NCBI GenBank assembly: GCA_021772055.1
Contig: JAETNR010000022.1
Coordinates: forward strand, 1-64,000
Direction of reading: 5' to 3'
Length of the DNA: 64,000 nucleotides
DNA from: Blautia sp.
GTDB lineage: Bacteria; Bacillota; Clostridia; Lachnospirales; Lachnospiraceae
Of the stretch, positions 51,478 to 64,000 are shown piece after piece (positions within the stretch are counted from its first letter, which is position 1; every line of letters begins with the position of its first letter). Both the position numbers and the translations under genes were made by a program. Below the pieces are notes generated by a model. The model saw nothing but the letters and a program-made list of their open reading frames with translations, searched no databases and had not been told where the DNA came from.

Positions 51478-52248
51478 ATGGCACATGTAATTGCAGTCGC
51501 CGGTAAAGGCGGCGTAGGCAAAACAACATTATGCGGAATGCTTATCCAGTATCTTTGCGAGCAGGGCAAGGGCCCGGTTCTTGCAGTGGATGCGGATGCC
51601 AATTCCAATCTGAATGAAGTTCTCGGCGTTGAGGTGGATACGACTCTCGGCGATGTACGGGAAGAAGTGGCACGTGCGGAGATGGCGAAGGATAATCCCA
51701 TTCCGGCAGGAATGAGCAAGGCTGACTATGCGGAATTCCGTTTTGAGGATGCCCTCGTGGAAGATAAAGATTTTGATCTTCTTGTAATGGGCAGAACCCA
51801 GGGAAAAGGCTGCTACTGTTTTGTAAACGGCCTTCTTCAGGCACAGCTTGCCAAGTATCAGAATAATTATCCCTATTTTGTTGTGGACAATGAAGCGGGG
51901 ATGGAGCATATCAGCAGAGGTGTGCTTCCTACTATGCAGACTGCAATTCTGGTAAGTGACTGTTCCAGAAGAGGAGTCCAGGCAGTAGGCAGGATCGCAC
52001 GTCTGATCGAGGAGTGCGATATGCATCCTTCCAAAGTAGGATTGATCATTAACCGTGCGCCCAAGGGCGAACTGAATGAAGGAATCCGGGAAGAGATCAA
52101 GAATCAGGGTCTGGATCTTCTGGGCGTTGTTCCTCAGGATGAAAGTGTTTATGAATACGACTGCGAGGGACGCCCGACGGTATCCCTTCCGGAGGATAAT
52201 CCTGTAAAACAGGCACTTCGCGCAATTGTAGACAAACTGGAACTATAA
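51478..52248 (+). CDS. cooC: CO dehydrogenase maturation ATPase, first copy
   Basis: The 256-residue MinD-type ATPase has the deviant Walker A GKGGVGKTT at residues about 9-17, and a CxC motif (GCYCFVN, about 119-125) that in CooC binds nickel at the dimer interface. Asp residues are in LAVDADANSNLNEVLG. It uses ATP to put nickel into the C-cluster. It is the fourth gene of a likely operon, AGGAGG being 8 bases before the ATG. A second, diverged CooC lies after acsA. Confidence 0.93.
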   Translation: MAHVIAVAGKGGVGKTTLCGMLIQYLCEQGKGPVLAVDADANSNLNEVLGVEVDTTLGDVREEVARAEMAKDNPIPAGMSKADYAEFRFEDALVEDKDFDLLVMGRTQGKGCYCFVNGLLQAQLAKYQNNYPYFVVDNEAGMEHISRGVLPTMQTAILVSDCSRRGVQAVGRIARLIEECDMHPSKVGLIINRAPKGELNEGIREEIKNQGLDLLGVVPQDESVYEYDCEGRPTVSLPEDNPVKQALRAIVDKLEL

Positions 52249-52447: not shown

Positions 52448-54340
52448 ATGAGTGAATTCAAATTAACTACAGTGGAAGAATTTGAAGCTGCCACTAATCG
52501 ACTGTTAGAGACTGGTGCCAAGGTTGGCGCAGATTCCTGGCAGATGCGTGTTAAAAATCAAACTCCACACTGTAAATTCGGTGAATCCGGTATGTGCTGC
52601 CGTATCTGCTCCATGGGACCGTGCCGTATTACCCCCAAGGCACCGAGAGGTATCTGTGGATGTGACGTACATGGTATTGTAGGAAGAAACTTCCTTCGTT
52701 TTACTTCCGGAGGTTCTGCAACTCACTCCGATCACGGCCGTGAAATTGCACATACACTGTACGAAGCATCTGCTGACGGCAACTACAAAGTAAAAGATCC
52801 TGAAAAACTTCTTCGTCTGGCTGCTGAGTTCGGCGTTGAAACAGAGGGAAGAGATATTTATGACATCGCTCATGAAGTAGCAGAAACAGGTCTGATGGAA
52901 TATGGTAAGCCATTCGGAACATTGGTGTTCCCGAAACGTGCACCACAGCATACACAGGAGATCTGGGAGAGAGAAGAAATTCTTCCGCGTGCCATCGACC
53001 GTGAGGTTTCCTGCTCCATGCATATGACCCATATGGGAAACTCCTCCAAACCGGAGGCGCTGATCCGTCAGGCACTTCGTTCCGGCCTTTCCGACGGATG
53101 GGGCGGTTCTATGATGGGTACCGAATTTTCAGATGTCCTTTTCGGAACACCGAAGGAAATTGATACAGAAGCAAACCTTGGCGTAATGGTAGAGGAAAAC
53201 GTAAACATCGTTGTTCACGGACATGATCCGTCACTTTCCGAAATGATCTGTGAATATGCAGACAGCAAGGAAATGATCGATTATGCAAAATCCATGGGTG
53301 CACAGGGAATTACTGTATCCGGTGTATGCTGTACCTCCAACGAAGTTGCAATGCGCCGCGGTATTCCTATGGCTGGTAACTTTCTGCAGCAGGAGAACGT
53401 GGTTCTTACCGGTGCCTGCGAAGCAATCGTTGTAGACGTTCAGTGTATTTTCCCGGCATTAGGACCTCTGTCCAGATGCTTCCATACGAAATTTATCACA
53501 ACTTCTCCCATTGCCCAGATGCCTGACTCTGATTTCATCAGATTCAACTCTAAGACTGCAGGAGAAAATGCAAAACTGATCGTAAAGACAGCAATTGAAA
53601 ACTTCAAGAACAGAAATAAAGACCTGGTATATATTCCGCAGATGAAACAGAAAGCTACCGTAGGCTTCTCTGTAGAGCAGATCGAGAAGAAACTGGATAC
53701 TGTAACAAACAGCCACGTTGACGTAACAGGCACTATGATGCCCCTTATTGACTGTGTAAAATCCGGTGTTCTCCGCGGTGCTGTAGCAATGGTTGGATGC
53801 AACAACCCGAAGGTTCGTCCTGACGCAGCTCATATCGAACTGATGAAGAAGCTCATTGCCAACGATATCATCCTGGTAGTTTCCGGATGTTCTGCACAGG
53901 CAGCAGCAAAGGCCGGCCTTATGGACAAGAGAGCAAAGGAATTCTGCGGCGCAGGTCTGAAACGTGTCTGCGAGCTTGTTGACATTCCTCCTGTATTACA
54001 TATGGGCTCCTGTGTAGATATCAGCCGTATGATGGTTCTGGCTGCAAGAATCGCAAAGGATTCCGGATGGAATATCTCCCAGATTCCGCTGGTAGGATGT
54101 GCTCCTGAGTGGATGTCCGAAAAAGCGGTATCTATTGGTAACTATGTAGTAGCGACCGGTATTGATACTTACCTTGGCGTTGAACCGTATGCATATGGTT
54201 CTTCTGAGGTTGACGGCCTTCTGAAGGGCGGCATCAGAGACTGGGTTGAGGCTGCTTACACTGTAGAACATGATATCGACAAATTAGGCGATATGATGAT
54301 CGAAAGAATCGAAGAAAAGAGAACTGCATTAGGTATCTGA
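52448..54340 (+). CDS. acsA: anaerobic carbon monoxide dehydrogenase catalytic subunit
   Basis: The 630-residue protein is the Ni-Fe-S CO dehydrogenase. The N-terminal cluster ligands are visible: C42 and C50 (shared D-cluster), C51, C54 and C59 with C70/C72 in RGICGCD (B-cluster). C-cluster ligands fall in VHGHDP (His), GVCCTSN, HTKFITTSP and the C-terminal block VGCNNPKV and VVSGCSAQAAAKAG. It reduces CO2 to CO with ferredoxin electrons and passes CO to acetyl-CoA synthase. AAAAGGAGG precedes the ATG. Codon use is highly biased. It is flanked by two cooC genes and followed by acsB. Confidence 0.97.
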   Translation: MSEFKLTTVEEFEAATNRLLETGAKVGADSWQMRVKNQTPHCKFGESGMCCRICSMGPCRITPKAPRGICGCDVHGIVGRNFLRFTSGGSATHSDHGREIAHTLYEASADGNYKVKDPEKLLRLAAEFGVETEGRDIYDIAHEVAETGLMEYGKPFGTLVFPKRAPQHTQEIWEREEILPRAIDREVSCSMHMTHMGNSSKPEALIRQALRSGLSDGWGGSMMGTEFSDVLFGTPKEIDTEANLGVMVEENVNIVVHGHDPSLSEMICEYADSKEMIDYAKSMGAQGITVSGVCCTSNEVAMRRGIPMAGNFLQQENVVLTGACEAIVVDVQCIFPALGPLSRCFHTKFITTSPIAQMPDSDFIRFNSKTAGENAKLIVKTAIENFKNRNKDLVYIPQMKQKATVGFSVEQIEKKLDTVTNSHVDVTGTMMPLIDCVKSGVLRGAVAMVGCNNPKVRPDAAHIELMKKLIANDIILVVSGCSAQAAAKAGLMDKRAKEFCGAGLKRVCELVDIPPVLHMGSCVDISRMMVLAARIAKDSGWNISQIPLVGCAPEWMSEKAVSIGNYVVATGIDTYLGVEPYAYGSSEVDGLLKGGIRDWVEAAYTVEHDIDKLGDMMIERIEEKRTALGI

Positions 54341-54385: not shown

Positions 54386-55150
54386 ATGAAAATTGCAGTA
54401 ACCGGCAAGGGCGGCGTAGGAAAGACAACATTTGCGGCAACACTTGCCAGATTATACGCAGACGAAGGCAAGCATGTCCTGGCGGCAGATGTGGATCCGG
54501 ATGCAAATCTGGGGCTTGCACTTGGATTTGACGAGGAAACCCTGGACTCGATCGTTCCCATTTCCAAAATGAGGAAACTGGTAGAAGAAAGAACCGGAGC
54601 CAACAGCCAGAACCAGTTTTATACACTGAATCCCAAAGTGGATGATATTCCGGATAAATTCGGAAAGGTCTGCAACGGAGTAAAGCTTCTGGTGCTTGGC
54701 ACTGTGGAGACCGGAGGTGGAGGATGTGTGTGTCCTGAGCATGTGATGCTGAAGCGTATCATCAACAATCTGGTTATTCACAGAGATGATGTCGTCATCC
54801 TTGATATGGAAGCCGGACTGGAACATCTGGGAAGAGGCACTACAGAAAGCATGGACGCTTTTGTGGTCGTCATCGAACCGGGGGCAAGAAGCGTTCAGAC
54901 CTATAAAAATGTAAAGCGTCTTGCAAAAGACCTTGGGGTGGCTCAGGTAATGGTAGTAGCCAATAAGGTGCGCAATGAAGAGGATGAGGAATTTGTGAAA
55001 AGCAGAATTCCGGAAGAAGACCTTCTTGGTATGATTCATTATAATACCGAGGTTATCGACGCTGACCGTCAGGGGAAATCTCCTTATGATTTCAGCCGGA
55101 CAGTTACCAAAGAAATAATCAAAATCAAAGAGAAAATTGATCAGAGATAA
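54386..55150 (+). CDS. cooC: CO dehydrogenase/acetyl-CoA synthase maturation ATPase, second copy
   Basis: The 254-residue MinD-like ATPase has GKGGVGKTT at the N-terminus, VDPDANLGLALG and the nickel motif GGCVCPEHV (about 112-120) that CooC-type proteins need. It differs clearly from the first CooC (51478). One copy may serve acsA and this one the A-cluster of AcsB, which it directly precedes; such a split is known for AcsF/CooC in acetogens. The next gene starts 24 bases after its stop. Confidence 0.93.
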   Translation: MKIAVTGKGGVGKTTFAATLARLYADEGKHVLAADVDPDANLGLALGFDEETLDSIVPISKMRKLVEERTGANSQNQFYTLNPKVDDIPDKFGKVCNGVKLLVLGTVETGGGGCVCPEHVMLKRIINNLVIHRDDVVILDMEAGLEHLGRGTTESMDAFVVVIEPGARSVQTYKNVKRLAKDLGVAQVMVVANKVRNEEDEEFVKSRIPEEDLLGMIHYNTEVIDADRQGKSPYDFSRTVTKEIIKIKEKIDQR

Positions 55151-55174
55151 GATCTGAAAATAGGAGGTATGACA

Positions 55175-57304
55175 GTGCTTTTATTTGATATCGTATTTAA
55201 CGGAAATGATACCATGTATGCAGAAGCAGTGGAAGCCGTTGATGCAGCCATCGCTGAGTACGGCGAAGACATGGCTGTAGGTTTTCCTGAAACAGCTTAT
55301 TCCCTTCCTTGCTTTTATGCAGAGACCGGAAATAAAATTACAACTTTAAAAGAAGCGAAAGAAGCCCTTACATATATTAAATCTCAGATGACCCGTGAGA
55401 GACGTCTGGATTCCGGATTCAAATCCGGTGTAGCAACCGCTCTGGCAGCAGAGCTGATCGAAGCTATGAAATATGTGGGAGGCAAGACACCGTATGAGGC
55501 TCCTTACCTTGGACATATGACAGATGCCCAGATCCGTGAGCTTGGTGTGCCGCTTGTAACAGGCGACATTCCTGGTATTGCAGTTATCATCAATGCAGCG
55601 CCTACTGTAGAAGAAGCATGTGCGCTGGTTAAGAGCTACCAGTCCCAGGGTAATTTCGTATGTCTGGTGGGGGGAATCATTGAGCAGTTGAAAGAAGCAA
55701 ATTATAAGACTGGCTTTAATGTACGTGTATTCCCTATCGGTGAGAATATTTCTTCCGTTTGCCATGCCGTATCTGCAGCCTGCAGAACAGCTATGATCTT
55801 CGGTAATATCACACCCGGTGATAAGGCAGCTCTTCAGGAGTACACCTTCAACAGATTCCGTGCATTTGTAAATGCATTTGCACCTCTGGATGAGAAGACC
55901 GTTGCCTGCGGTGCCGGTGCGATCTACTATGGTTTCCCGGTAGTTACCAATGATATGGACTACACGCCAAGCGTACCGAAGAGCCTGATCAAACAGCCGA
56001 AGGTAGAAGAGTTTAATGCTACTTCCCTTGAGGCTCGTGACATTAAGATCAAGATCACAAACGTTGATATTCCTGTAGCATTTGCATCTGCATTTGAAGG
56101 TGAGATCATCCGCCGTAAAGATATGCAGGTTGAGTTTGATGGTTCCCGTGTAGACTGTGCAGAGCTTGTACAGACCTGTGAGCCTTCTGAAGTAGAAGAC
56201 CACAAGATCACCGTAATCGGACCGGAAGCTGACGAAATGCCTTTGGGAAGCAAGAACAGCATCGTTTACCTGGTGAAAGTTGCAGGCAAGAACATGCAGC
56301 CTGACTTTGAATCCGTTATTGAACGTAAATTCCATAACTACATTAACTGTATTGAAGGTGTATATCATACAGGCCAGCGTGATATGCAGCGTATCCGTAT
56401 CAGTATTGATGCATTCAATGCGGGATTCCGCATCAAACATATCGGTGAAGTTCTTTATACACAGGTTAAGAACGAATTTGACGCTGTTGTTGATAAATGT
56501 GAAGTTGTTATTTACACAGATCCTGCAGAATGTACAAGAATGCGCCATGAAGTTGCGATTCCGATCTTCAACAAACGTGACGAGCGTCTTGACAATCTGA
56601 CAGATGAATCTGTAGACGTATACTACAGCTGTATCCTTTGCCAGGCATTCTCCCCGTCTCACGTATGTGTGGTTACCCCTGAGAGACTTGGACTTTGCGG
56701 TGCCGTTTCATGGCTGGATGCAAAAGCAACCAACGAGCTTGATCCTGCAGGCCCATGTCAGGTGATCACCAAAGAAAGAGTGATCGATGAGAATCTTGGC
56801 GCTTACGAAGATGTTGATGAAGCCGTACAGAAATACTCTCAGGGTGCTCTGGAGCATGTTACTCTGTACTCCATCATGCAGGATCCTATGACCTCCTGCG
56901 GATGCTTCGAGTGTATCTGCGGTATCGAGCCATTCTCCAACGGTGTTGTAATCGCAAACCGTGAATATGCAGGTATGACTCCTCTTGGAATGACCTTCTC
57001 CGAAATGGCATCCATGACAGGCGGCGGTGTTCAGACACCAGGCTTTATGGGACATGGAAAACATTTTATCGCTTCCAAGAAATTCATGAAGGCAGAGGGC
57101 GGTATTGAGCGTATCGTTTGGATGCCGAAAGAACTGAAAGAATTCGTTGCAGAAAGATTGAATAAGACTGCAAAAGAGCTGTACGGAGTTGACAATTTCA
57201 CTGATATGATCGGTGATGAGACTGTTGCCGAAGATCCGGAGACACTGGTAGCATTCTTAACAGAGAAGAACCATCCGGCACTTGCACTGGAGCCGATGAT
57301 GTAA
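55175..57304 (+). CDS. acsB: acetyl-CoA synthase catalytic subunit, copy 1
   Basis: The 709-residue protein makes acetyl-CoA from CO, CoA and the methyl group of the corrinoid protein. The A-cluster cysteines are all present: C486, C489, C498 and C508 (C-x2-C-x8-C-x9-C) for the 4Fe-4S part, with C575 and C577 in TSCGCFE for the nickels. The spacing matches Moorella AcsB, whose numbering is 20 higher. The GTG at 55175 lies 7 bases after AGGAGG; the ATG at 55169 would touch the site. The N-terminal 300 residues, which form the CO tunnel and CODH contact, are only moderately like those of the second copy, while the rest is nearly identical. A stem-loop follows. Confidence 0.95.
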   Translation: MLLFDIVFNGNDTMYAEAVEAVDAAIAEYGEDMAVGFPETAYSLPCFYAETGNKITTLKEAKEALTYIKSQMTRERRLDSGFKSGVATALAAELIEAMKYVGGKTPYEAPYLGHMTDAQIRELGVPLVTGDIPGIAVIINAAPTVEEACALVKSYQSQGNFVCLVGGIIEQLKEANYKTGFNVRVFPIGENISSVCHAVSAACRTAMIFGNITPGDKAALQEYTFNRFRAFVNAFAPLDEKTVACGAGAIYYGFPVVTNDMDYTPSVPKSLIKQPKVEEFNATSLEARDIKIKITNVDIPVAFASAFEGEIIRRKDMQVEFDGSRVDCAELVQTCEPSEVEDHKITVIGPEADEMPLGSKNSIVYLVKVAGKNMQPDFESVIERKFHNYINCIEGVYHTGQRDMQRIRISIDAFNAGFRIKHIGEVLYTQVKNEFDAVVDKCEVVIYTDPAECTRMRHEVAIPIFNKRDERLDNLTDESVDVYYSCILCQAFSPSHVCVVTPERLGLCGAVSWLDAKATNELDPAGPCQVITKERVIDENLGAYEDVDEAVQKYSQGALEHVTLYSIMQDPMTSCGCFECICGIEPFSNGVVIANREYAGMTPLGMTFSEMASMTGGGVQTPGFMGHGKHFIASKKFMKAEGGIERIVWMPKELKEFVAERLNKTAKELYGVDNFTDMIGDETVAEDPETLVAFLTEKNHPALALEPMM

Positions 57305-57325
57305 TTTTCTGCTGCCGGATATGCG

Positions 57326-57352
57326 AAAGAAGGTTCTATGAACCTTCTTTTG
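57326..57352 (+). terminator. stem-loop between the two acsB genes
   Basis: AAAGAAGGTTC (57326-57336) and GAACCTTCTTT (57340-57350) make an 11-bp stem with a 3-base loop followed by TT. An outer GCTGCC/GGCAGC pairing (57311-57316 with 57352-57357) extends it. It may terminate some transcripts so that copy 2 is made at lower level, or stabilise the upstream message. Confidence 0.6.
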
Positions 57353-57407
57353 GCAGCCCGGTAATAACTTTGTGAATATTTGTTTTAAAAAGATGGAGAT
57401 GTGCAGC

Positions 57408-59534
57408 ATGTTAATTAACAGAATTTTTAGCGGAAATGATGCAGTATTCGGTTTGACCGAACAGGCTGTGGACGGGGCCGTTTCACAGTATGGTGCAGAT
57501 AAGGCAGTTGGGTTTCCCCACACTGCATATTGCCTGCCTTGCTACTATTCTGTAACAGGTGTAAAGGTAAAAACACTTGGGGATATGAAAGAAGCCCTTG
57601 GTGTGATCAAAACATTGATGATAAGGGAGCATGCACTGGATGATGCGTTAATGTCCGGTGTGGCAACCGCTTTGTGCGCGGAATTTATAGAAGCGCTGAA
57701 ATATTTGGACGGAGCACAGCCGTATGAGGAACCATGTTATGGCCATCTGGCTGACTCCATTATCCGTGAGCTTGGTGTACCGCTTGTTACAGGCGATATT
57801 CCGGGCGTTGCTGTTATTCTGGGATCGGCTCCCACCCCGCAGGAAGGTGTGGACCTCATTAAGAGCTATCAGGCACAGGGAATTCTTGTGACTCTGGTAG
57901 GCGGTATTATTGATCAGGCCTCAGAACTTGGCTTAAAGATGGGCTATCAGGTACGTATCGTGCCGCTGGGCAGAGACGTGACTTCGGTCATCCATGTAGT
58001 ATCCGTGGCGCTTCGTGCAGCTTTGATCTTTGGCAATGTAACTCCCGGAGATGCAGCAAGTCTGATCACCTATACATCTGAGAGGGTTCCGGCATTTGTT
58101 AATGCCTTTAAGCCCATTGATGACGTGATCCTGGCAGCCGGAGCCGGAGCAATTAAGCTTGGTTTTCCGGTGATTTCCAATGAGAATGAAAATATTGCGG
58201 AAGTACCTGGAGCGTTGATCGCCTGTCCTGATGTGGCAGACTTTAATAAAGTTTCCCTGGAAGCACGGAATATTAAGATCAAAATTACCAATATTGATAT
58301 TCCAGTGGCGTTCGCATCTGCATTTGAGGGTGAGATTATCCGCCGTAAAGACATGCAGGTTGAGTTTGACGGTTCCCGTGTGGATTGTGCGGAGCTTGTT
58401 CATACAAGACCTATGGATGAGGTGGAGGATCATAAGATCACTGTGATCGGACCGGATGTGGATACCTTTGAAGCCGGAAGCAAACACAGTCTTGCATATG
58501 TGGTAGAAGTAGCAGGAAAGAAGATGCAGCCGGATTTCGAACCGGTTATCGAACGTAAATTCCACAACTATATTAACTGTATTGAAGGTGTATACCATAC
58601 AGGTCAGAGGGATATGTTCCGTATCCGTATCGGCAGGGAGGCATTTCAGGCAGGTTTCCGTGTGAAACATTTTGGAGAAGTTCTGTATGCGCAGGTGAAA
58701 AATGAATTTGAAGCCGTTGTGGACAAGTGTCAGGTGACGATTTACACAGATCCTGCGGAATGTACAAGAATTCGTCATGAAGTGGCAATCCCTACCTTCG
58801 AAAAACGTGATGCACGTCTGGAAACATTGACAGATGAATCTGTTGATGTATATTACAGCTGCATTCTCTGCCAGGCATTTTCCCCATCCCACGTGTGCGT
58901 GGTAACGCCGGAAAGACTTGGCCTTTGCGGAGCAGTATCCTGGCTGGATGCAAAAGCAACCAATGAGCTGGATCCTGCAGGCCCATGTCAGGTGATCACC
59001 AAGGAGCGTGTGATCAATGAAGAGCTTGGCTCCTATGAAGATGTAGATGAAGCCGTTCAGAAATATTCTCAAGGGGCTCTTAAGCATGTTACCCTGTATT
59101 CCATTATGCAGGATCCCATGACCTCCTGCGGCTGCTTTGAGTGTATCTGCGGTATTGAGCCGTTTTCCAATGGTGTTGTGATCGCCAACCGCGAGTATGC
59201 GGGCATGACTCCCCTTGGGATGACCTTCCCGGAAATGGCATCCATGACCGGAGGCGGTGTACAGACTCCGGGCTTTATGGGACATGGGAAACATTTCATT
59301 GGATCCAAAAAGTTCATGAAGGCAGAAGGCGGTATCGAACGTATTGTATGGATGCCGAAGGAACTGAAGGAGACTGTGGCAGAGCGTCTGAACAAGACAG
59401 CGAAGGAGCTTTACGGAATCGACAATTTCACGGATATGATTGGTGACGAAACCGTTGCTACGGATCCGGAAACTCTGGTGGCATTTTTGACAGAACATGC
59501 ACATCCTGCCTTGTCAATGGAACCAATGATGTAG
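57408..59534 (+). CDS. acsB: acetyl-CoA synthase catalytic subunit, copy 2
   Basis: This second AcsB has 708 residues, with A-cluster cysteines C485, C488, C497, C507, C574 and C576 in the same spacing as copy 1. From about residue 290 onward, including the stretch from GSRVDCAELV to the C-terminal EPMM, it is nearly the same protein as copy 1. Residues 1-280 are only about half identical (for instance LINRIFSGNDAVFG here against LLFDIVFNGNDTMYA). The start at 57408 follows GGAGATG. Both copies look active. The difference points to different partners of the N-terminal domain or to different substrates in gas flow. Confidence 0.93.
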   Translation: MLINRIFSGNDAVFGLTEQAVDGAVSQYGADKAVGFPHTAYCLPCYYSVTGVKVKTLGDMKEALGVIKTLMIREHALDDALMSGVATALCAEFIEALKYLDGAQPYEEPCYGHLADSIIRELGVPLVTGDIPGVAVILGSAPTPQEGVDLIKSYQAQGILVTLVGGIIDQASELGLKMGYQVRIVPLGRDVTSVIHVVSVALRAALIFGNVTPGDAASLITYTSERVPAFVNAFKPIDDVILAAGAGAIKLGFPVISNENENIAEVPGALIACPDVADFNKVSLEARNIKIKITNIDIPVAFASAFEGEIIRRKDMQVEFDGSRVDCAELVHTRPMDEVEDHKITVIGPDVDTFEAGSKHSLAYVVEVAGKKMQPDFEPVIERKFHNYINCIEGVYHTGQRDMFRIRIGREAFQAGFRVKHFGEVLYAQVKNEFEAVVDKCQVTIYTDPAECTRIRHEVAIPTFEKRDARLETLTDESVDVYYSCILCQAFSPSHVCVVTPERLGLCGAVSWLDAKATNELDPAGPCQVITKERVINEELGSYEDVDEAVQKYSQGALKHVTLYSIMQDPMTSCGCFECICGIEPFSNGVVIANREYAGMTPLGMTFPEMASMTGGGVQTPGFMGHGKHFIGSKKFMKAEGGIERIVWMPKELKETVAERLNKTAKELYGIDNFTDMIGDETVATDPETLVAFLTEHAHPALSMEPMM

Positions 59535-59587: not shown

Positions 59588-60529
59588 ATGCCGTTTAATC
59601 AGAAACCACAAAAGTTTAATGCAAAGATTAACACAGTCACCATCGGCAGCGGAGATAAGACAGTTGCTTTGGGAGGAAACAGTACATTTCCTTTCTACAC
59701 ATTCGATGCTCCCACCGAGAACACCGCTAAAGTAGGTGTTGAAATTTCCGATATGGGTCTGGAAGGTGCATCAGAAGGAATTAAGGCATACTATGAAGGC
59801 GCTTCTACCATGGCTGAGATCGCAAAAAAAGCTGCAGCTATGGAAGGTGCTGATTTTGTTGCACTTGTTCTGGAAGGCGGAGACCCGAACGGTGAGAACA
59901 AGTCTGTAGACGAGCTGATCGCAGTTGTAAAAGAAGTTGCAGATGCAGTTGACTGCCCGTTAGTAGTAGAAGGCTGCAAGAATGTAGAAAAAGATGCGGA
60001 ACTTCTTCCGAAGGTAGCAGAAGTGCTCCAGGGAAGAAACGTTCTGATCCTTTCCGAAAAAGAAGAAAACTACAAGGCAATCGGTGCTTCCGCAGGTCTT
60101 GCATACAACCAGATCGTTGGTGCGGAATCTGCAGTAGATATCAACCTTGCAAAACAGTTAAACGTTGTTACCACTCAGTTAGGTGTAAATGCACAGAAGA
60201 TCGTTATGAATATCGGAAGTGCATGTGCAGGATACGGATATGAATATGTTGTATCTACCATGGACCGTATCAAAGGCGCAGCATTGGGACAGAACGACAA
60301 TATGCTGCAGATGCCTATCATTACTCCAGTAGCTTCCGAGACATGGGGCGTAAAAGAAGCATCCGCTTCTGAAGCAGATATGCCGGAATGGGGACCGCAG
60401 GACGAGCGCGGAATCGACATGGAAATCATGACCGCAGCAGCTGACCTGGCAGCAGGTTCTGATGCAGTCATTCTGAGACATCCTCAGTCTGTTGCAACCA
60501 TTTCTAAAATGATCAAAGCACTTGCGTAA
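59588..60529 (+). CDS. acsD: corrinoid/iron-sulphur protein small subunit
   Basis: The 313-residue TIM-barrel protein is the small subunit of the corrinoid iron-sulphur protein. Typical stretches are TVALGGNSTFPFYTFD, VALVLEGGDPNGENKS and the C-terminal WGPQDERGIDMEIMTAAADLAAGSDAVILRHP. With AcsC it carries the methyl group on cobalt from the methyltransferase to acetyl-CoA synthase. GAGGAGG precedes the ATG and acsC follows 22 bases after the stop. Confidence 0.95.
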   Translation: MPFNQKPQKFNAKINTVTIGSGDKTVALGGNSTFPFYTFDAPTENTAKVGVEISDMGLEGASEGIKAYYEGASTMAEIAKKAAAMEGADFVALVLEGGDPNGENKSVDELIAVVKEVADAVDCPLVVEGCKNVEKDAELLPKVAEVLQGRNVLILSEKEENYKAIGASAGLAYNQIVGAESAVDINLAKQLNVVTTQLGVNAQKIVMNIGSACAGYGYEYVVSTMDRIKGAALGQNDNMLQMPIITPVASETWGVKEASASEADMPEWGPQDERGIDMEIMTAAADLAAGSDAVILRHPQSVATISKMIKALA

Positions 60530-60551: not shown

Positions 60552-61898
60552 ATGGCACTGAATGGTATTCAGATCTTTAAATTAACACCAAAGAAAAACT
60601 GTAAGGAATGTGGATGCCCGACATGTATGGCTTTCTCCATGAAAGTTGCACAGGGCGCTATGAAAATTGAGCAGTGTCCGCATATGTCTGATGAAGCAAT
60701 CGCATCTCTGTCAGAGGCAACCGCTCCGCCAATGAAAACCATCAAGATCGGTACAGGCGAAGGCGAATATACTCTTGGCGGTGAGACTGTACTTTTCAGA
60801 CATGAGAAGACATTCGTAAGCAAAACAAGATATGCAGTATCTCTCTGCACATGCATGGATGATGCAGCAGTAGAAGCTAAACTTGCAGAAATCCCGAAGG
60901 TAGACTATGAACGTATCGGTGAAAGAATGTATGCAGAGCTCGTATATGTAAACTGCTGTGAGGATGCAGATGCTGCAAAATATACCGCATTGGTTGAAAA
61001 AGCAGCAGGTCTTGGCAGAACTCTGATTCTTGGCTGTGCAGATCCTGAGATCGCAAAAGCAGCTCTTGCAGTATGCAAAGACAGCAAACCGGTATTAAAT
61101 GGAGCAAATGCTTCCAACTACGAAGCTATGAACGCAGTTGCAGCAGAAGCAGGCGTTGTACTTGGCGTATCCGGCAAAGACATCAACGAACTGTATGATA
61201 CTGTAGCAGCTCTGGAAAAACTTGGAAACAAGAACCTTGTTCTTGACGTAACAGGCGCTGACCTGAAAGAGACTTTTGCAAATGCAGTTCTTGTCCGCCG
61301 TGCAGCATTGAAAGATCAGGACAGAACTTTTGGATATCCGTCCATCGTAAACACTGTAAAGATCGCAGGCGGCGACGTACATATGCAGGCAGCTCTTGCT
61401 TCCCTGTTTACCATGAAATACGGTTCCATCATTGTTATGGAGCAGATGACTTATGCAGAAGCACTTCCTCTGTATGGACTTCGTCAGAACGTATTTACAG
61501 ACCCGCAGAAGCCAATGAAAGTAGAACCCGGCATCTACCAGCTGAACGGTGCAGACGAGAATTCTCTGGTTGTTACAACCGTAGACTTTGCTCTGACCTA
61601 CTTCGTAGTTTCCGGCGAGCTGGAGCGTTCCGGTGTTCCGCTTAATCTTGTTATCAATGATGCAGGCGGATTATCCGTACTGACATCCTGGGCTGCAGGC
61701 AAGTTCTCCGGCAACAGCATCTCCAAATTTATCATCGAGAATGTTGAACCGAAGGTAAAATGCAGAAAGCTTCTGATTCCTGGTAAAGTTGCTGTTCTCA
61801 AGGGCGACCTGGAAGCAAAACTTCCTGGATGGGAGATCATCGTTGGACCGAGAGAAGCTGTACAGCTTGTAAAATTCTTAAAGGATATGCAGGCATAA
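60552..61898 (+). CDS. acsC: corrinoid/iron-sulphur protein large subunit
   Basis: The 448-residue protein has the N-terminal 4Fe-4S motif C17-x2-C20-x4-C25-x16-C42 (KNCKECGCPTC then EQCPHM). This cluster keeps cobalt reduced. A TIM barrel and a C-terminal corrinoid-binding domain (NDAGGLSVLTSWAAGKFSG and KVAVLKGDLE) follow. It accepts methyl from AcsE and gives it to AcsB. The corrinoid explains why the cob operon is important in this organism. AGGAGG precedes the ATG. Confidence 0.96.
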   Translation: MALNGIQIFKLTPKKNCKECGCPTCMAFSMKVAQGAMKIEQCPHMSDEAIASLSEATAPPMKTIKIGTGEGEYTLGGETVLFRHEKTFVSKTRYAVSLCTCMDDAAVEAKLAEIPKVDYERIGERMYAELVYVNCCEDADAAKYTALVEKAAGLGRTLILGCADPEIAKAALAVCKDSKPVLNGANASNYEAMNAVAAEAGVVLGVSGKDINELYDTVAALEKLGNKNLVLDVTGADLKETFANAVLVRRAALKDQDRTFGYPSIVNTVKIAGGDVHMQAALASLFTMKYGSIIVMEQMTYAEALPLYGLRQNVFTDPQKPMKVEPGIYQLNGADENSLVVTTVDFALTYFVVSGELERSGVPLNLVINDAGGLSVLTSWAAGKFSGNSISKFIIENVEPKVKCRKLLIPGKVAVLKGDLEAKLPGWEIIVGPREAVQLVKFLKDMQA

Positions 61899-62000: not shown

Positions 62001-62786
62001 ATGGCAAAATTTGTAACAATCGGGGAAAGACTTTCCACCACAGCACCGGCGGTAAACAAAGCATTTACCGAAAGAGATCCTGAGCCGATCTTAAAAAGAG
62101 CAAAACAGCAGCTGGATGCAGGCGCTACATATCTTGATGTAAATATCGGACCTGCAGAAAATGACGGCGAAGATTTAATGAAATGGGCTGTTCAGCTTCT
62201 TCAGAGCGAATTTGACAATGTTCCGCTTGCTCTGGATACCACCAACATGAAAGCAATCGAAGCCGGTATTTCCGTATACAACAGAGCTAAAGGAAAACCA
62301 ATCGTAAATTCCGCAGATGCAGGAGACAGAATTGCAAACATCGATCTTGCAGCAGCAAATGATGCTATTGTTATCGCTCTTTGTTCTTCCGGTATGGTTG
62401 CTGCAGACAATGATGAGCGTATGATGCATTGCCAGAATATGCTTGAAAGAGGTATGATGCTTGGCATGGAACCGACAGATCTGTGGTTTGACCCGTTATT
62501 CCTGGTTGTAAAGGGAATGCAGGACAAACAGATGGAAGTTCTGGAAGCAATCAAAATGTTCTCAGAGATGGGACTGAATTCCACAGGCGGTCTGTCCAAC
62601 AACAGTAATGGTATGCCGAAACACATCCGTCCGATCATGGATTCCGCTCTTGTAGCAATGTGTATGATGCAGGGTCTTACTTCTGCGATTGTAAACCCGA
62701 ATGACCTTCGTCTGATGGAAACAATCAAATCCTGTGATATCTTTAAGAATAATACTCTGTACGCTGATTCCTATCTGGAAATCTAA
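62001..62786 (+). CDS. acsE: methyltetrahydrofolate:corrinoid/iron-sulphur protein methyltransferase
   Basis: The 261-residue pterin-binding TIM barrel has TIGERLSTTAPAVNKAF and GATYLDVNIGPAENDGEDLM near the N-terminus, where pteridine-binding Asp and Asn lie. PLALDTTNMKAIEAG, GLSNNSNGMP and NPNDLRLMET follow. It moves the methyl from CH3-tetrahydrofolate to the cobalt of AcsC/AcsD, linking the methyl and carbonyl branches. AAGGAGAAG precedes the ATG. A terminator-like hairpin separates it from acsV. Confidence 0.95.
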   Translation: MAKFVTIGERLSTTAPAVNKAFTERDPEPILKRAKQQLDAGATYLDVNIGPAENDGEDLMKWAVQLLQSEFDNVPLALDTTNMKAIEAGISVYNRAKGKPIVNSADAGDRIANIDLAAANDAIVIALCSSGMVAADNDERMMHCQNMLERGMMLGMEPTDLWFDPLFLVVKGMQDKQMEVLEAIKMFSEMGLNSTGGLSNNSNGMPKHIRPIMDSALVAMCMMQGLTSAIVNPNDLRLMETIKSCDIFKNNTLYADSYLEI

Positions 62787-62889: not shown

Positions 62890-64000
62890 ATGTTTAAGGT
62901 AACATTTGCATTCGAAGATGGCAGTGTGGTAGAGACATATGCCAATGCGGGGGATAATCTATTGGAAATTGCGCGGGAGGCCAATGTAGCCATTGATGCT
63001 CCCTGTTCCGGAAACGCTTCCTGCGGAAAATGCCGGGTGCAGTTAAAAAGCGGAGAATTAGATTCCAAAAAAACACTTCATATTGCGGAGGAAGAGTACA
63101 ACAGCGGATGGAGACTGGCTTGCGTGAGCACGGTTTGTGCAGATGTAACGGTACTGGTGCCGGATATTGCTTCTGCCTATAAGAGCAGAATGAAGGTTGC
63201 GGATTTAAGCTCTAAAGAGGAAATTGCCATTTTTGAAAAAGCCAAGAGAGAGATTGAATTTACCGGCATTATGCTGAGCAATAGTCTGGATGTGGTGGAG
63301 GTTACCATGAATCCGCCCAGTCTGGATGATACAATGCCGGATAATGAACGTCTGACAAGGGCGCTCCGTAAATTTTTGAATATTAAACGTGTAAGGATTC
63401 CTTATGCAGTATTGAAGAAACTGCCGGATGTCCTTCGCGACAACAATTACCAGGTAAAATGTATCCTGCGGACAACACCCAACGATATGTTTGTCTATGA
63501 CATTTATGGCATGGAAGACAACGTTGTGACATGCGGTCTTGCAGTGGATATCGGAACAACAACTGTATCGGCCGTGATCATTAATATGGAGAACGGCGAA
63601 ATTCTGGCAAAGGGTTCTGCAGGAAACGGGCAGATCCGTTATGGCGCGGATGTAATTAACCGTATCATTGAACAGCAGAAGCCGGGCGGCAAAAAGAAAC
63701 TTCAGGATGCTGTGATCAGGGAGACAATTAATCCCATGATCCGCGAAATGTGCAGAAGCGCCGGAATTTCCAAAAATCAGATATACAGGATGTGCGTAGC
63801 ATCCAATACAACGATGAATCATCTGTTTGCAGGAATCAATGCAGATCCGCTGCGTATGGAACCATATATTCCTGCATTCTTTAAAACAAATTCCCTGTTT
63901 GCTTCCGATGTGGGAATTGATATTAACCAGGATGCCCATATTATTGTGGCACCGAATATAGGGAGCTATGTAGGCGGTGATATTACTGCCGGGACACTTG
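62890..64000 (+). CDS. acsV: reductive activator of the corrinoid protein (AcsV/RACo-like), truncated by the window end
   Basis: The 370 residues visible combine an N-terminal plant-type 2Fe-2S domain (APCSGNASCGKCRVQ, fourth Cys in LACVSTVC, residues 1-95) with an ATP-binding ASKHA domain. The latter begins near residue 216 (LAVDIGTTTVSAV) and has GNGQIRYGADVINRI and, at the edge, GSYVGGDITAG. Such proteins use ATP to reactivate oxidised Co(II) in the corrinoid protein. The gene continues beyond the window. AAGGTGG lies before the ATG at 62890. No stop occurs to 64000. Confidence 0.92.
   Translation, partial: MFKVTFAFEDGSVVETYANAGDNLLEIAREANVAIDAPCSGNASCGKCRVQLKSGELDSKKTLHIAEEEYNSGWRLACVSTVCADVTVLVPDIASAYKSRMKVADLSSKEEIAIFEKAKREIEFTGIMLSNSLDVVEVTMNPPSLDDTMPDNERLTRALRKFLNIKRVRIPYAVLKKLPDVLRDNNYQVKCILRTTPNDMFVYDIYGMEDNVVTCGLAVDIGTTTVSAVIINMENGEILAKGSAGNGQIRYGADVINRIIEQQKPGGKKKLQDAVIRETINPMIREMCRSAGISKNQIYRMCVASNTTMNHLFAGINADPLRMEPYIPAFFKTNSLFASDVGIDINQDAHIIVAPNIGSYVGGDITAGTL

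Follow-up and report, generated by a model that had tools for sequence, protein, structure and literature searches.

The closest described systems are bacterial complexes of acetyl-CoA synthase (ACS) with CO dehydrogenase (CODH). The ACS of Carboxydothermus hydrogenoformans has reportedly been solved alone (1ru3), a precedent for a functional monomeric ACS, and we take this structure and that of the protein with CODH (7zkj) to be one gene product in two states. According to the available portion of PMC12289521, the N-terminal domain (residues 2-315) stays on CODH in 7zkj, and the Clostridium autoethanogenum complex belongs to the second class of bacterial CODH-ACS complexes. A second acsB with similar gene order was published for gut Lachnospiraceae in 2014, and the ACS copies of TWA4 are 63% identical; the accessible parts of this earlier work do not mention a domain-wise split, conversion or CODH pairing.

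The window analysed here is a 64,000-nucleotide stretch of Blautia sp. DNA with two acsB genes, for both of which the C. autoethanogenum CODH/ACS (PDB 6ytt, 6yua) was the best solved match (888 and 937 bits), homologous over the full length. Both copies are closer to 6ytt than to wild-type class-1 full-length chains (614-654 bits) and share their gate sequence with the C. autoethanogenum protein. The accessible text of PMC12289521 mentions no second ACS, whereas the window combines two N-domain types with one CODH; likewise, C. hydrogenoformans has one protein in two states, whereas the window has two paralogues with different N-domains. The relevant features are:

51478..52248, + strand, first cooC-type nickel-insertion ATPase gene (ORF, named by context)
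52448..54340, + strand, acsA, Ni-CO dehydrogenase (TIGR01702, 592 bits, cut-off 478)
54386..55150, + strand, second cooC-type ATPase gene (cooC2), between acsA and acsB1 (ORF, named by context)
55169..57304, + strand, acsB1, CODH-side acetyl-CoA synthase, 711 aa (NF040764, 1022 bits, cut-off 800)
55169..56068, + strand, acsB1 N-terminal domain, residues 1-300, B1 type, co-varying with AcsA
56069..57301, + strand, acsB1 catalytic core, residues 301-711, most likely homogenised by lineage (Pfam CdhC and ACS_CODH_B_C; trees)
57313..57363, + strand, predicted intergenic RNA hairpin in the acsB1/acsB2 gap, not terminator-like (folding energies)
57399..59534, + strand, acsB2, second acetyl-CoA synthase, 711 aa from ATG (NF040764, 1058 bits (1057.6), cut-off 800)
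57399..58298, + strand, acsB2 N-terminal domain, residues 1-300, B2 type, without AcsA co-variation
58299..59531, + strand, acsB2 catalytic core, residues 301-711, most likely homogenised by lineage (trees, Pfam)
59588..60529, + strand, acsD, corrinoid iron-sulfur protein (CoFeSP) subunit (NF040759, 500 bits, cut-off 430)
60552..61898, + strand, acsC, CoFeSP subunit (NF003195, 529 bits, cut-off 306)
62001..62786, + strand, acsE, methyltransferase (NF040758, 470 bits, cut-off 370)
62890..63999, + strand, acsV, corrinoid activation protein, truncated where the window stops (NF040756, 500 bits)

As originally predicted, the acsB genes form a full-length tandem pair, in frame and head to tail, with both products above the NCBIfam cut-off for bacterial ACS equivalogs. 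Also as predicted, both retain the A-cluster cysteines (C488, C491, C500, C510, C577 and C579), which are invariant in 93 alignment rows (where C577 and C579 are labelled one lower). The CO alcove and tunnel gate residues G126, V127, V130, F211 and F494, listed from the available text of PMC11321310 and PMC12289521 and placed by alignment to solved ACS, are present in 19/19 B1, 19/19 B2, 46/46 S and 9/9 outgroup rows. Pfam analysis of the acsB1 core placed CdhC at residues 301-454 and ACS_CODH_B_C at residues 467-711. The longest acsB2 ORF opens at a GTG (57372) upstream of the ATG at 57399. Profile matches of the first cooC-type ORF were to MinD/ParA-type ATPases only, with none over the cut-off, and all family matches of the second were under the cut-off. 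The truncated acsV product matches positions 1-365 of 632 in NF040756 and hence falls under the whole-protein cut-off of 800.

An assembly artefact was rejected as the origin of the pair: of 60 genomes, our own included, 43 gave a match (a weak, partial one in a single case), and by our count 15 genomes besides our own have two matches on one contig, spaced 2.15-2.47 kb; G001 and G037 among these 15 are single-contig assemblies. A second CODH partnering AcsB2 was also rejected, as acsA is the only CODH over the cut-off in this genome and the other two matches score 28.8 and 22.7 bits against a cut-off of 478. By our count, eight of the 15 further genomes with a tandem pair likewise have a single CODH.

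The two proteins had been described as about half identical in their N-terminal parts and nearly the same thereafter, despite many synonymous differences. Identity is 54% over residues 1-285, and silent divergence has reached saturation in the N and C parts alike (NG86 dS 2.2 and 1.6, fourfold-site identity 0.38 and 0.52, respectively), with a longest identical nucleotide run of 32 nt. Near-identity holds for residues 476-711 (94%) but not for residues 286-475 (81%; 88% over 286-711), and the description "nearly the same protein" strictly fits only the last third. The contrast between the parts is larger than a plain domain rate difference: the median dN(N)/dN(C) is 4.31 (2.43-10.64) in 18 within-genome pairs versus 1.35 (0.78-3.49) in 142 same-type comparisons across genera. 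An AlphaFold2 model of AcsB2 built on 24 rows was of poor quality, with a mean pLDDT of 63 and values mostly below 50 at residues 477-690; residues 293-317 are low-confidence in it too, which may fit a linker there but is no proof of one.

A silent-site run test found no recent conversion tract in the window pair (p 0.30), and the last conversion event between these two genes is most likely too old to see. Saturated dS and no recent tract are what an old duplication without conversion would leave, with the catalytic half merely slower under purifying selection. We regard this as highly improbable, since it is refuted across relatives, where C-part trees follow lineage and clades by type are rejected. 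The relatives comprised the best 80 matches of the scan (76 loci; L156-L159, from the same genomes as L041, L073, L044 and L042, were excluded from counts), and the trees and AU tests used 47 of 102 rows, with "Blautia" denoting the clade, some members of which carry broader names in their records. Residues 1-300 cluster by gene type across genera and residues 301 onward by lineage. In the N-part tree, the downstream copies form one clade (99.7), as do the B1 copies (100), and a Blautia clade is rejected (AU, dlnL 379). In the C-part tree, Blautia is one clade (99.8), and clades of downstream copies (AU, dlnL 143.5, p 7.5e-5) and of B1 copies (AU, dlnL 273, p 1.5e-5) are rejected. All ten alignment windows up to residue 300 sort by type, and the later windows sort by lineage (12/14) or are mixed (2/14); the switch point coincides with the start of the archaeal-type CdhC core. 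Using our own thresholds for type-fixed sites, with 93 rows grouped and 9 of 102 left ungrouped, 285 N columns contain 9 B2-specific, 16 B1-specific and 3 three-way sites, and 426 C columns contain no B1-, B2- or S-specific site. Both this count and the dN ratios given above argue against purifying selection alone.

Conversion tracts in relatives point the same way. In silent-site run tests of 21 pairs, tracts were detected in L045 (residues 478-620, p 0.0005) and L034 (residues 454-572, p 0.0025), followed by L103 (p 0.046), where p values are uncorrected for the 21 tests. In a distant class-1 family, two loci with 76% CODH identity share a 1,043-nt tract, letter for letter, within the catalytic part; AcsA and the N-domain retain their locus type in 3/3 genomes of this family, and same-genome cores are 97-99.5% alike. 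Assembly error may underlie the 1,043-nt tract, but the two sister genomes also have identical runs there, albeit shorter ones. Across relatives, paralogues thus group by genome and contain tracts with raised silent identity, the pattern of a gene-converted pair. Judged from these alignments, the catalytic core (residues 301-711) has most likely been homogenised repeatedly between same-genome copies, with gene conversion behind it. The suggestion of conversion in the original prediction therefore stands for residues 301-711 across relatives, in the opposite trees and the tracts, but not as a recent tract in the window pair. The original prediction gave conversion and docking specialisation as alternatives; the two seem to apply together, each to its own part of the protein. 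Bacterial tufA and tufB are duplicated genes in concerted evolution, likewise homogenised by conversion; in the acsB pair this involves one structural module only, while the other keeps its type.

The absence or inactivity of one copy in sibling strains had been named as an outcome that would count against two distinct synthases. B2 is indeed missing from several relatives (e.g. L085, L087 and L088) and is thus accessory, but none of the 93 rows contains a copy without A-cluster or alcove residues. Blautia B2 N-domains are 86-95% identical to that of the window, and 88-89% identical where the CODH is of the S type (L035, L036 and L057).

The original proposal that the two synthases dock to different partners gains indirect support: AcsA co-varies with the first-copy N-domain but not with its second-copy counterpart, with exceptions among relatives. 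Partial Mantel correlations were calculated for loci with acsA, cooC2, acsD, acsC, acsE and a first acsB (49 loci, minus the distant L100 and L103). Given a species proxy (acsD alone for the n=16 and n=12 runs), AcsA correlates with the first-copy N-domain at 0.70 (n=47), 0.83 and 0.82 in tandem sets (n=14 and n=16) and 0.96 in Blautia tandem loci (n=12), versus -0.15, -0.32 and 0.10 for the second-copy N-domain. Leave-one-out values are 0.71 to 0.93 and -0.33 to -0.04, respectively. The N-type matches the CODH type in 48/49 loci, a count that includes the six reference rows, and an independent-pairs test gave three concordant pairs on starred branches (p 0.25). Among the exceptions, L082 combines an N-domain of the S type with a CODH in the B1 state at 10/10 diagnostic sites, and L041 is a tie. 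In addition, the same-genome loci L053/L055, L062/L059 and L051/L094 have S-type N-domains that are 96.5, 97.5 and 99.3% identical, against a mere 82-84% for their CODHs, so the same N-domain can be found alongside two diverged CODHs. Once such modules are added, AcsA and N correlate at 0.50 (n=65) instead of 0.57 (n=59) when the C half is controlled for, and AcsA and C given N at 0.39 in the enlarged set.

The same direction was seen in seven genomes whose second ACS belongs to another lineage, with AcsA correlating at 0.97 with the first N-domain (exact p 0.002) and 0.32 with the second (p 0.086), which correlates with AcsC at 0.82; these values are without species control, and L105 (a near twin of L103) and L144 were left out. 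AcsA also tracks the core of the first copy in this set (0.95), so the effect is not N-specific. This would suit a purely mechanical history, in which similar cores keep recombining, N-domains are too diverged to do so, and acsA is co-inherited with the adjacent N-domain with no partner specialisation. The cores are indeed conserved and are where the conversion tracts lie, and acsA adjoins the acsB N part in the class-1 family. For cooC2, the control between acsA and acsB1, AU tests gave p 0.51 and 0.073, on a row set where the B1 clade for the first-copy core is also unrejected (p 0.32). We nevertheless consider such a history unlikely, given the sharp switch at a domain boundary, the conservation of N-domains within types and the behaviour of cooC2, which lies between acsA and acsB in Blautia yet carries little type signal. 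Its Fst-like value is 0.12, compared with 0.56 for acsA and 0.62-0.80 for the N part, in an author-chosen set of 12 B1 and 16 S Blautia-clade loci without L035, a near twin of L036; the acsB2 comparison used nine loci with B1 CODH and four with S CODH (L035, L036, L057 and L038, whose CODH, L101, sits elsewhere in that genome on a separate contig). Simple inheritance of an acsA-cooC-acsB block may therefore be disfavoured, the AU tests being equivocal.

It is also conceivable, if rather unlikely, that AcsB1 and AcsB2 share the single CODH as docking partner, in mixed complexes or for gene dosage, with AcsB2 using a patch common to all CODH types; its N-domain then need not track AcsA. The genome does hold two ACS genes and a single CODH, the B2 N-domain is canonical with intact gate and alcove residues, and one N-domain type occurs with the diverged CODHs described above. 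The C. autoethanogenum N-domain also resembles B2 more than B1 (326 versus 292 bits), and an undegraded domain nearer to a solved one means that AcsB2 could well be able to dock. Against this, the first-copy N-domain shifts with CODH while that of B2 in Blautia stays within the 86-95% range, and the other second-ACS lineage, that of the seven genomes, behaves similarly.

The acsB1-acsB2 gap folds at -33.5 kcal/mol (z -4.6), its best 60 nt reaching -27.9 (z -6.9), and a terminator scan did not list the hairpin. Hairpins with z < -2 were predicted after the first acsB in 18/19 scored pairs, only one of the 18 having a T-rich tail, after 39/40 single acsB genes and after 6/17 B2 genes; L103 and L105, with other genes between the copies, and gaps below 20 nt were skipped. 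The predicted hairpin splits the unit, grouping acsB2 with the corrinoid-protein genes, and could have a role in setting expression. In Clostridium operons with selective RNA processing and stabilisation, intergenic stem-loops set subunit ratios (available text of PMC4423207 and PMC8219983); those cases were shown by experiment, whereas the acsB1/acsB2 hairpin is a predicted fold. The terms Wood-Ljungdahl, acetyl-CoA, CODH and acs are all absent from the text of PMC8219983.

The reading that we prefer, at a probability of roughly one half, is that bacterial AcsB consists of two modules with separate histories. The core, which carries the A-cluster and the CoFeSP and CoA chemistry, would be copied again and again between same-genome copies, and the N-domain, CODH-anchored and containing the CO tunnel in solved complexes, escapes homogenisation and persists as distinct types. 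The first-copy N-domain, adjoining acsA, tends to be inherited and altered jointly with CODH, which is why AcsB1 is probably the CODH-docked synthase. The second-copy N-domain varies independently of CODH despite the single CODH of this genome; this, with its CoFeSP-side position past the hairpin, suggests that AcsB2 is not tailored to this CODH. Most simply, AcsB2 would be a CODH-independent ACS that takes its methyl group from CoFeSP and, probably, free CO from solution. In the tandem set, the B2 N-domain correlates with cooC2 (0.52) as well as acsD (0.66) given the C halves, so a CoFeSP link is not specific.

Modular evolution of this kind suggests that conversion keeps an ancient carbon-fixing catalyst uniform while the CO-receiving domain is tailored to its own CODH, and surveys that use the conserved acsB core as a marker cannot separate the types. 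More tentatively, many gut and other Clostridia may possess two ACS classes that share a repeatedly copied core, one CODH-fitted with a fast-changing docking domain, the other CoFeSP-side, conserved, uncoupled and using CO from solution, a split that would have arisen at least twice. The CO in solution might come from the host, neighbours or leakage, and the two origins would be represented by the Blautia B2 type and by the type found in L100, L103 and L160-L162.

The Wood-Ljungdahl operon of the window lies on the + strand in the order cooC, acsA, cooC, acsB1, acsB2, acsD, acsC, acsE, acsV, where both cooC genes were named from gene context. It contains two acetyl-CoA synthase (ACS) genes:

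55169-57304, + strand: acsB1, above the bacterial ACS equivalog cut-off
57399-59534, + strand: acsB2, above the bacterial ACS equivalog cut-off

The A-cluster cysteines are intact in both products, and both carry the residues that the accessible parts of PMC11321310 and PMC12289521 assign to the CO alcove and the gate. Identity between AcsB1 and AcsB2 rises from 54% (residues 1-285) through 81% (286-475) to 94% (476-711), and dS is saturated over the whole length. Operons of this gene order with an extra acsB are already known: the accessible part of PMC4275979 (2014) describes them in TWA4, B. hydrogenotrophica and R. obeum. Copies of acsB have also been counted in 43 acetogen species (PMC10103890, the accessible part of which holds no domain analysis). 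The Acetobacterium 'acsB1' is the ACS gene of its cluster, with no acsB2 beside it in the accessible parts of PMC3315566 and PMC6925170. A search of open-access literature found no report of the domain split described below or of its link to CO dehydrogenase (CODH, AcsA). The source genome, a draft of 192 contigs with 5.6% contamination, encodes one CODH above the family cut-off in this assembly. No formate dehydrogenase exceeded the TIGR01591 cut-off in these 192 contigs, as in the Blautia described in the accessible part of PMC11338639; partial, weaker matches lie at 11796-13082 of contig C63, within a 1,171-codon open frame.

A scan of named genome contigs yielded at least 76 related loci, mostly from Blautia and other Lachnospiraceae, whose gene order was assigned by BLAST with the genes of the window. 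Among the matches listed, a second acsB was present in 21 of the 75 loci with a complete first acsB (window counted), and no tandem matches beyond the known ones were found among 200 genera of the family, each represented by one genome. The N-domains of the Lachnospiraceae loci listed fall into three types: B1, which occupies the upstream slot in the window; B2, which occurs only downstream; and S, which is found in single genes and in the upstream slot of loci L035, L036 and L057. The upstream partner of B2 is of B1 or S type, and some loci have B1 or S genes without B2. Minimal acsA-acsB modules without adjoining cooC and acsD were also seen (L055, L068, L094, L106 and L147, also L059 and L082); the L094 module (Blautia parvula) is immediately preceded by ORFs named by eye as a LysR-type regulator and a hydrogenase-like iron-sulfur protein.

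Trees of the N part and the C part were in strong conflict (102 rows, 47 of which were used for AU tests). The N part grouped the downstream copies (99.7) and the B1 copies (100) and rejected a Blautia clade. The C part supported the Blautia clade (99.8), and for it a grouping of the downstream copies (p 7.5e-5) was rejected, as was one of the B1 copies (p 1.5e-5). All ten sliding windows up to residue 300 grouped by type, while 12 of the 14 past it grouped by lineage and two were mixed. Residue 301 is the first of the CdhC domain. In C. hydrogenoformans ACS, the N-domain anchored on CODH spans residues 2-315 (PMC12289521, accessible part), and its end aligns with about window residue 297. By thresholds of our own choosing, the 285 N columns contained nine B2-specific, 16 B1-specific and three three-way fixed differences, and the 426 C columns contained no type-specific ones. 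Slower evolution of the core fails on its own to account for this pattern, because the median N/C dN ratio was 4.31 in 18 within-genome pairs versus 1.35 in 142 same-type cross-genus comparisons, although the two ranges overlap.

In the AcsA tree, the position of most genomes corresponds to the N-type of their first AcsB; L040, L041, L073 and L082 are exceptions or intermediates. N-type matched CODH type in 48/49 loci (six of them reference rows, several margins narrow), and each trait required six changes on the acsDCE tree. When B1 and S genomes of Blautia were compared along the operon, the Fst-like contrast was 0.56 for AcsA. Over residues 1-280 of the first AcsB it was 0.62-0.80, a value high by construction since the types are defined there. 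It was 0.12 for cooC2, about 0-0.3 past residue 320, 0.14-0.19 for acsD, acsC and acsE, and 0.15 for the whole of acsB2 (9 versus 4 loci), where one C-part window reached 0.63. In AU tests, the Blautia clade was rejected by AcsA and the N part and supported by the first AcsB core and AcsD, with cooC2 neither for nor against it; a B1 clade of the first-copy core was not rejected (p 0.32) in the row set with AcsA, cooC2 and AcsD. Partial Mantel correlations of AcsA were 0.70 to 0.96 with the first N-domain versus -0.32 to 0.10 with the second, a contrast stable to removal of single loci, with p-values that allow only partly for shared ancestry. An independent-pairs test on the tree gave three concordant pairs (starred branches) out of three, too small a number for significance (p 0.25).

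This pairing of AcsA with the N-domain is a tendency and not a strict rule. In three same-genome locus pairs, the S-type N-domains of the minimal module and the main locus share 96.5-99.3% identity, although the CODHs share only 82-84%. Of 10 B1/S-diagnostic sites, 7-8 are in the S state in these CODHs. L082 combines an S-type N-domain with a CODH in the B1 state at 10/10 sites. Once minimal modules were added, AcsA correlated with N at 0.50 instead of 0.57 when the C half was controlled for, and with C at 0.39 when N was controlled for.

A different second ACS occurs after acsE (L142, L143, L103, L160 and L161), after acsC (L162) or directly after the first copy (L100). Across these seven genomes, which include the close relatives L142 and L143 and were compared without species control, AcsA correlated with the first N-domain at r 0.97 (exact p 0.002) versus 0.32 (p 0.086) with the second, and at 0.95 with the first copy's core; AcsC correlated at 0.82 with the second N-domain versus 0.52 with the first. 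The second ACS of L100, L103 and L160-L162 is a separate type in which N-domains are more conserved (78-85% mutually identical) than cores (70-78%), the reverse of first copies.

A run test on silent sites detected conversion tracts at p < 0.01 in two of 21 pairs, both across the A-cluster region (L045, residues 478-620, p 0.0005; L034, residues 454-572, p 0.0025), and no recent tract in the window pair (p 0.30). Three genomes of a distant family, whose ACS is of class 1 (best match 1ru3), each have a full operon and an acsA-acsB pair on separate contigs. Within a locus type, AcsA is 95-98% and the N part 94-96% identical, versus 76-77% and 81-85% between loci, AcsA being compared there within each genome; cores are 95-99.5% identical regardless of type. 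Same-genome cores are closer than same-type orthologues in two of these genomes but not in the third. At L145/L146, the two loci of one genome of this family, a 1,043-nt core stretch is identical between the two acsB genes, and the acsA genes share 72.5% DNA identity. No report of ACS gene conversion was found among open-access titles and the opening parts of abstracts, nor any of concerted evolution of ACS in the open-access literature.

According to the accessible part of PMC12289521, CODH and the N-domains of ACS are the only parts resolved in the flexible state, the tunnel is opened by a gate helix located in the N-domain, and ACS can use CO from solution with sub-micromolar affinity. The main competing reading of the twin genes is that both AcsB copies dock on CODH. 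A core shared by conversion and a single CODH-fitted N-domain fit a division of labour, in which AcsB1 would receive CO channelled from CODH and AcsB2 would take it from solution.

Predicted hairpins were scored in gaps of at least 20 nt against 30 shuffles each (strong, z < -2). A strong hairpin lies 3' of the CODH-side acsB in 18/19 scored pairs (17 below -15 kcal/mol), so that AcsB2 falls on the CoFeSP (acsD, acsC) side of this joint, and after the single-copy acsB in 39/40 loci. Strong hairpins were found after acsB2 in 6/17 cases, in the acsA-cooC gap in 9/59, the cooC-acsB gap in 3/24 and the acsD-acsC gap in 1/54, hairpin-poor gaps also being shorter. The hairpins are constant in position and variable in sequence. 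Because just 1/18 pair hairpins has a T-rich tail, these predicted structures resemble terminators less than they do stabilisers or processing sites, such as those described for Clostridium operons (PMC4423207 and PMC8219983, accessible parts), and we infer that they may affect expression. A second recurrent predicted hairpin, strong in 40/54 acsC-acsE gaps, lies where the CoFeSP genes adjoin the methyltransferase gene.
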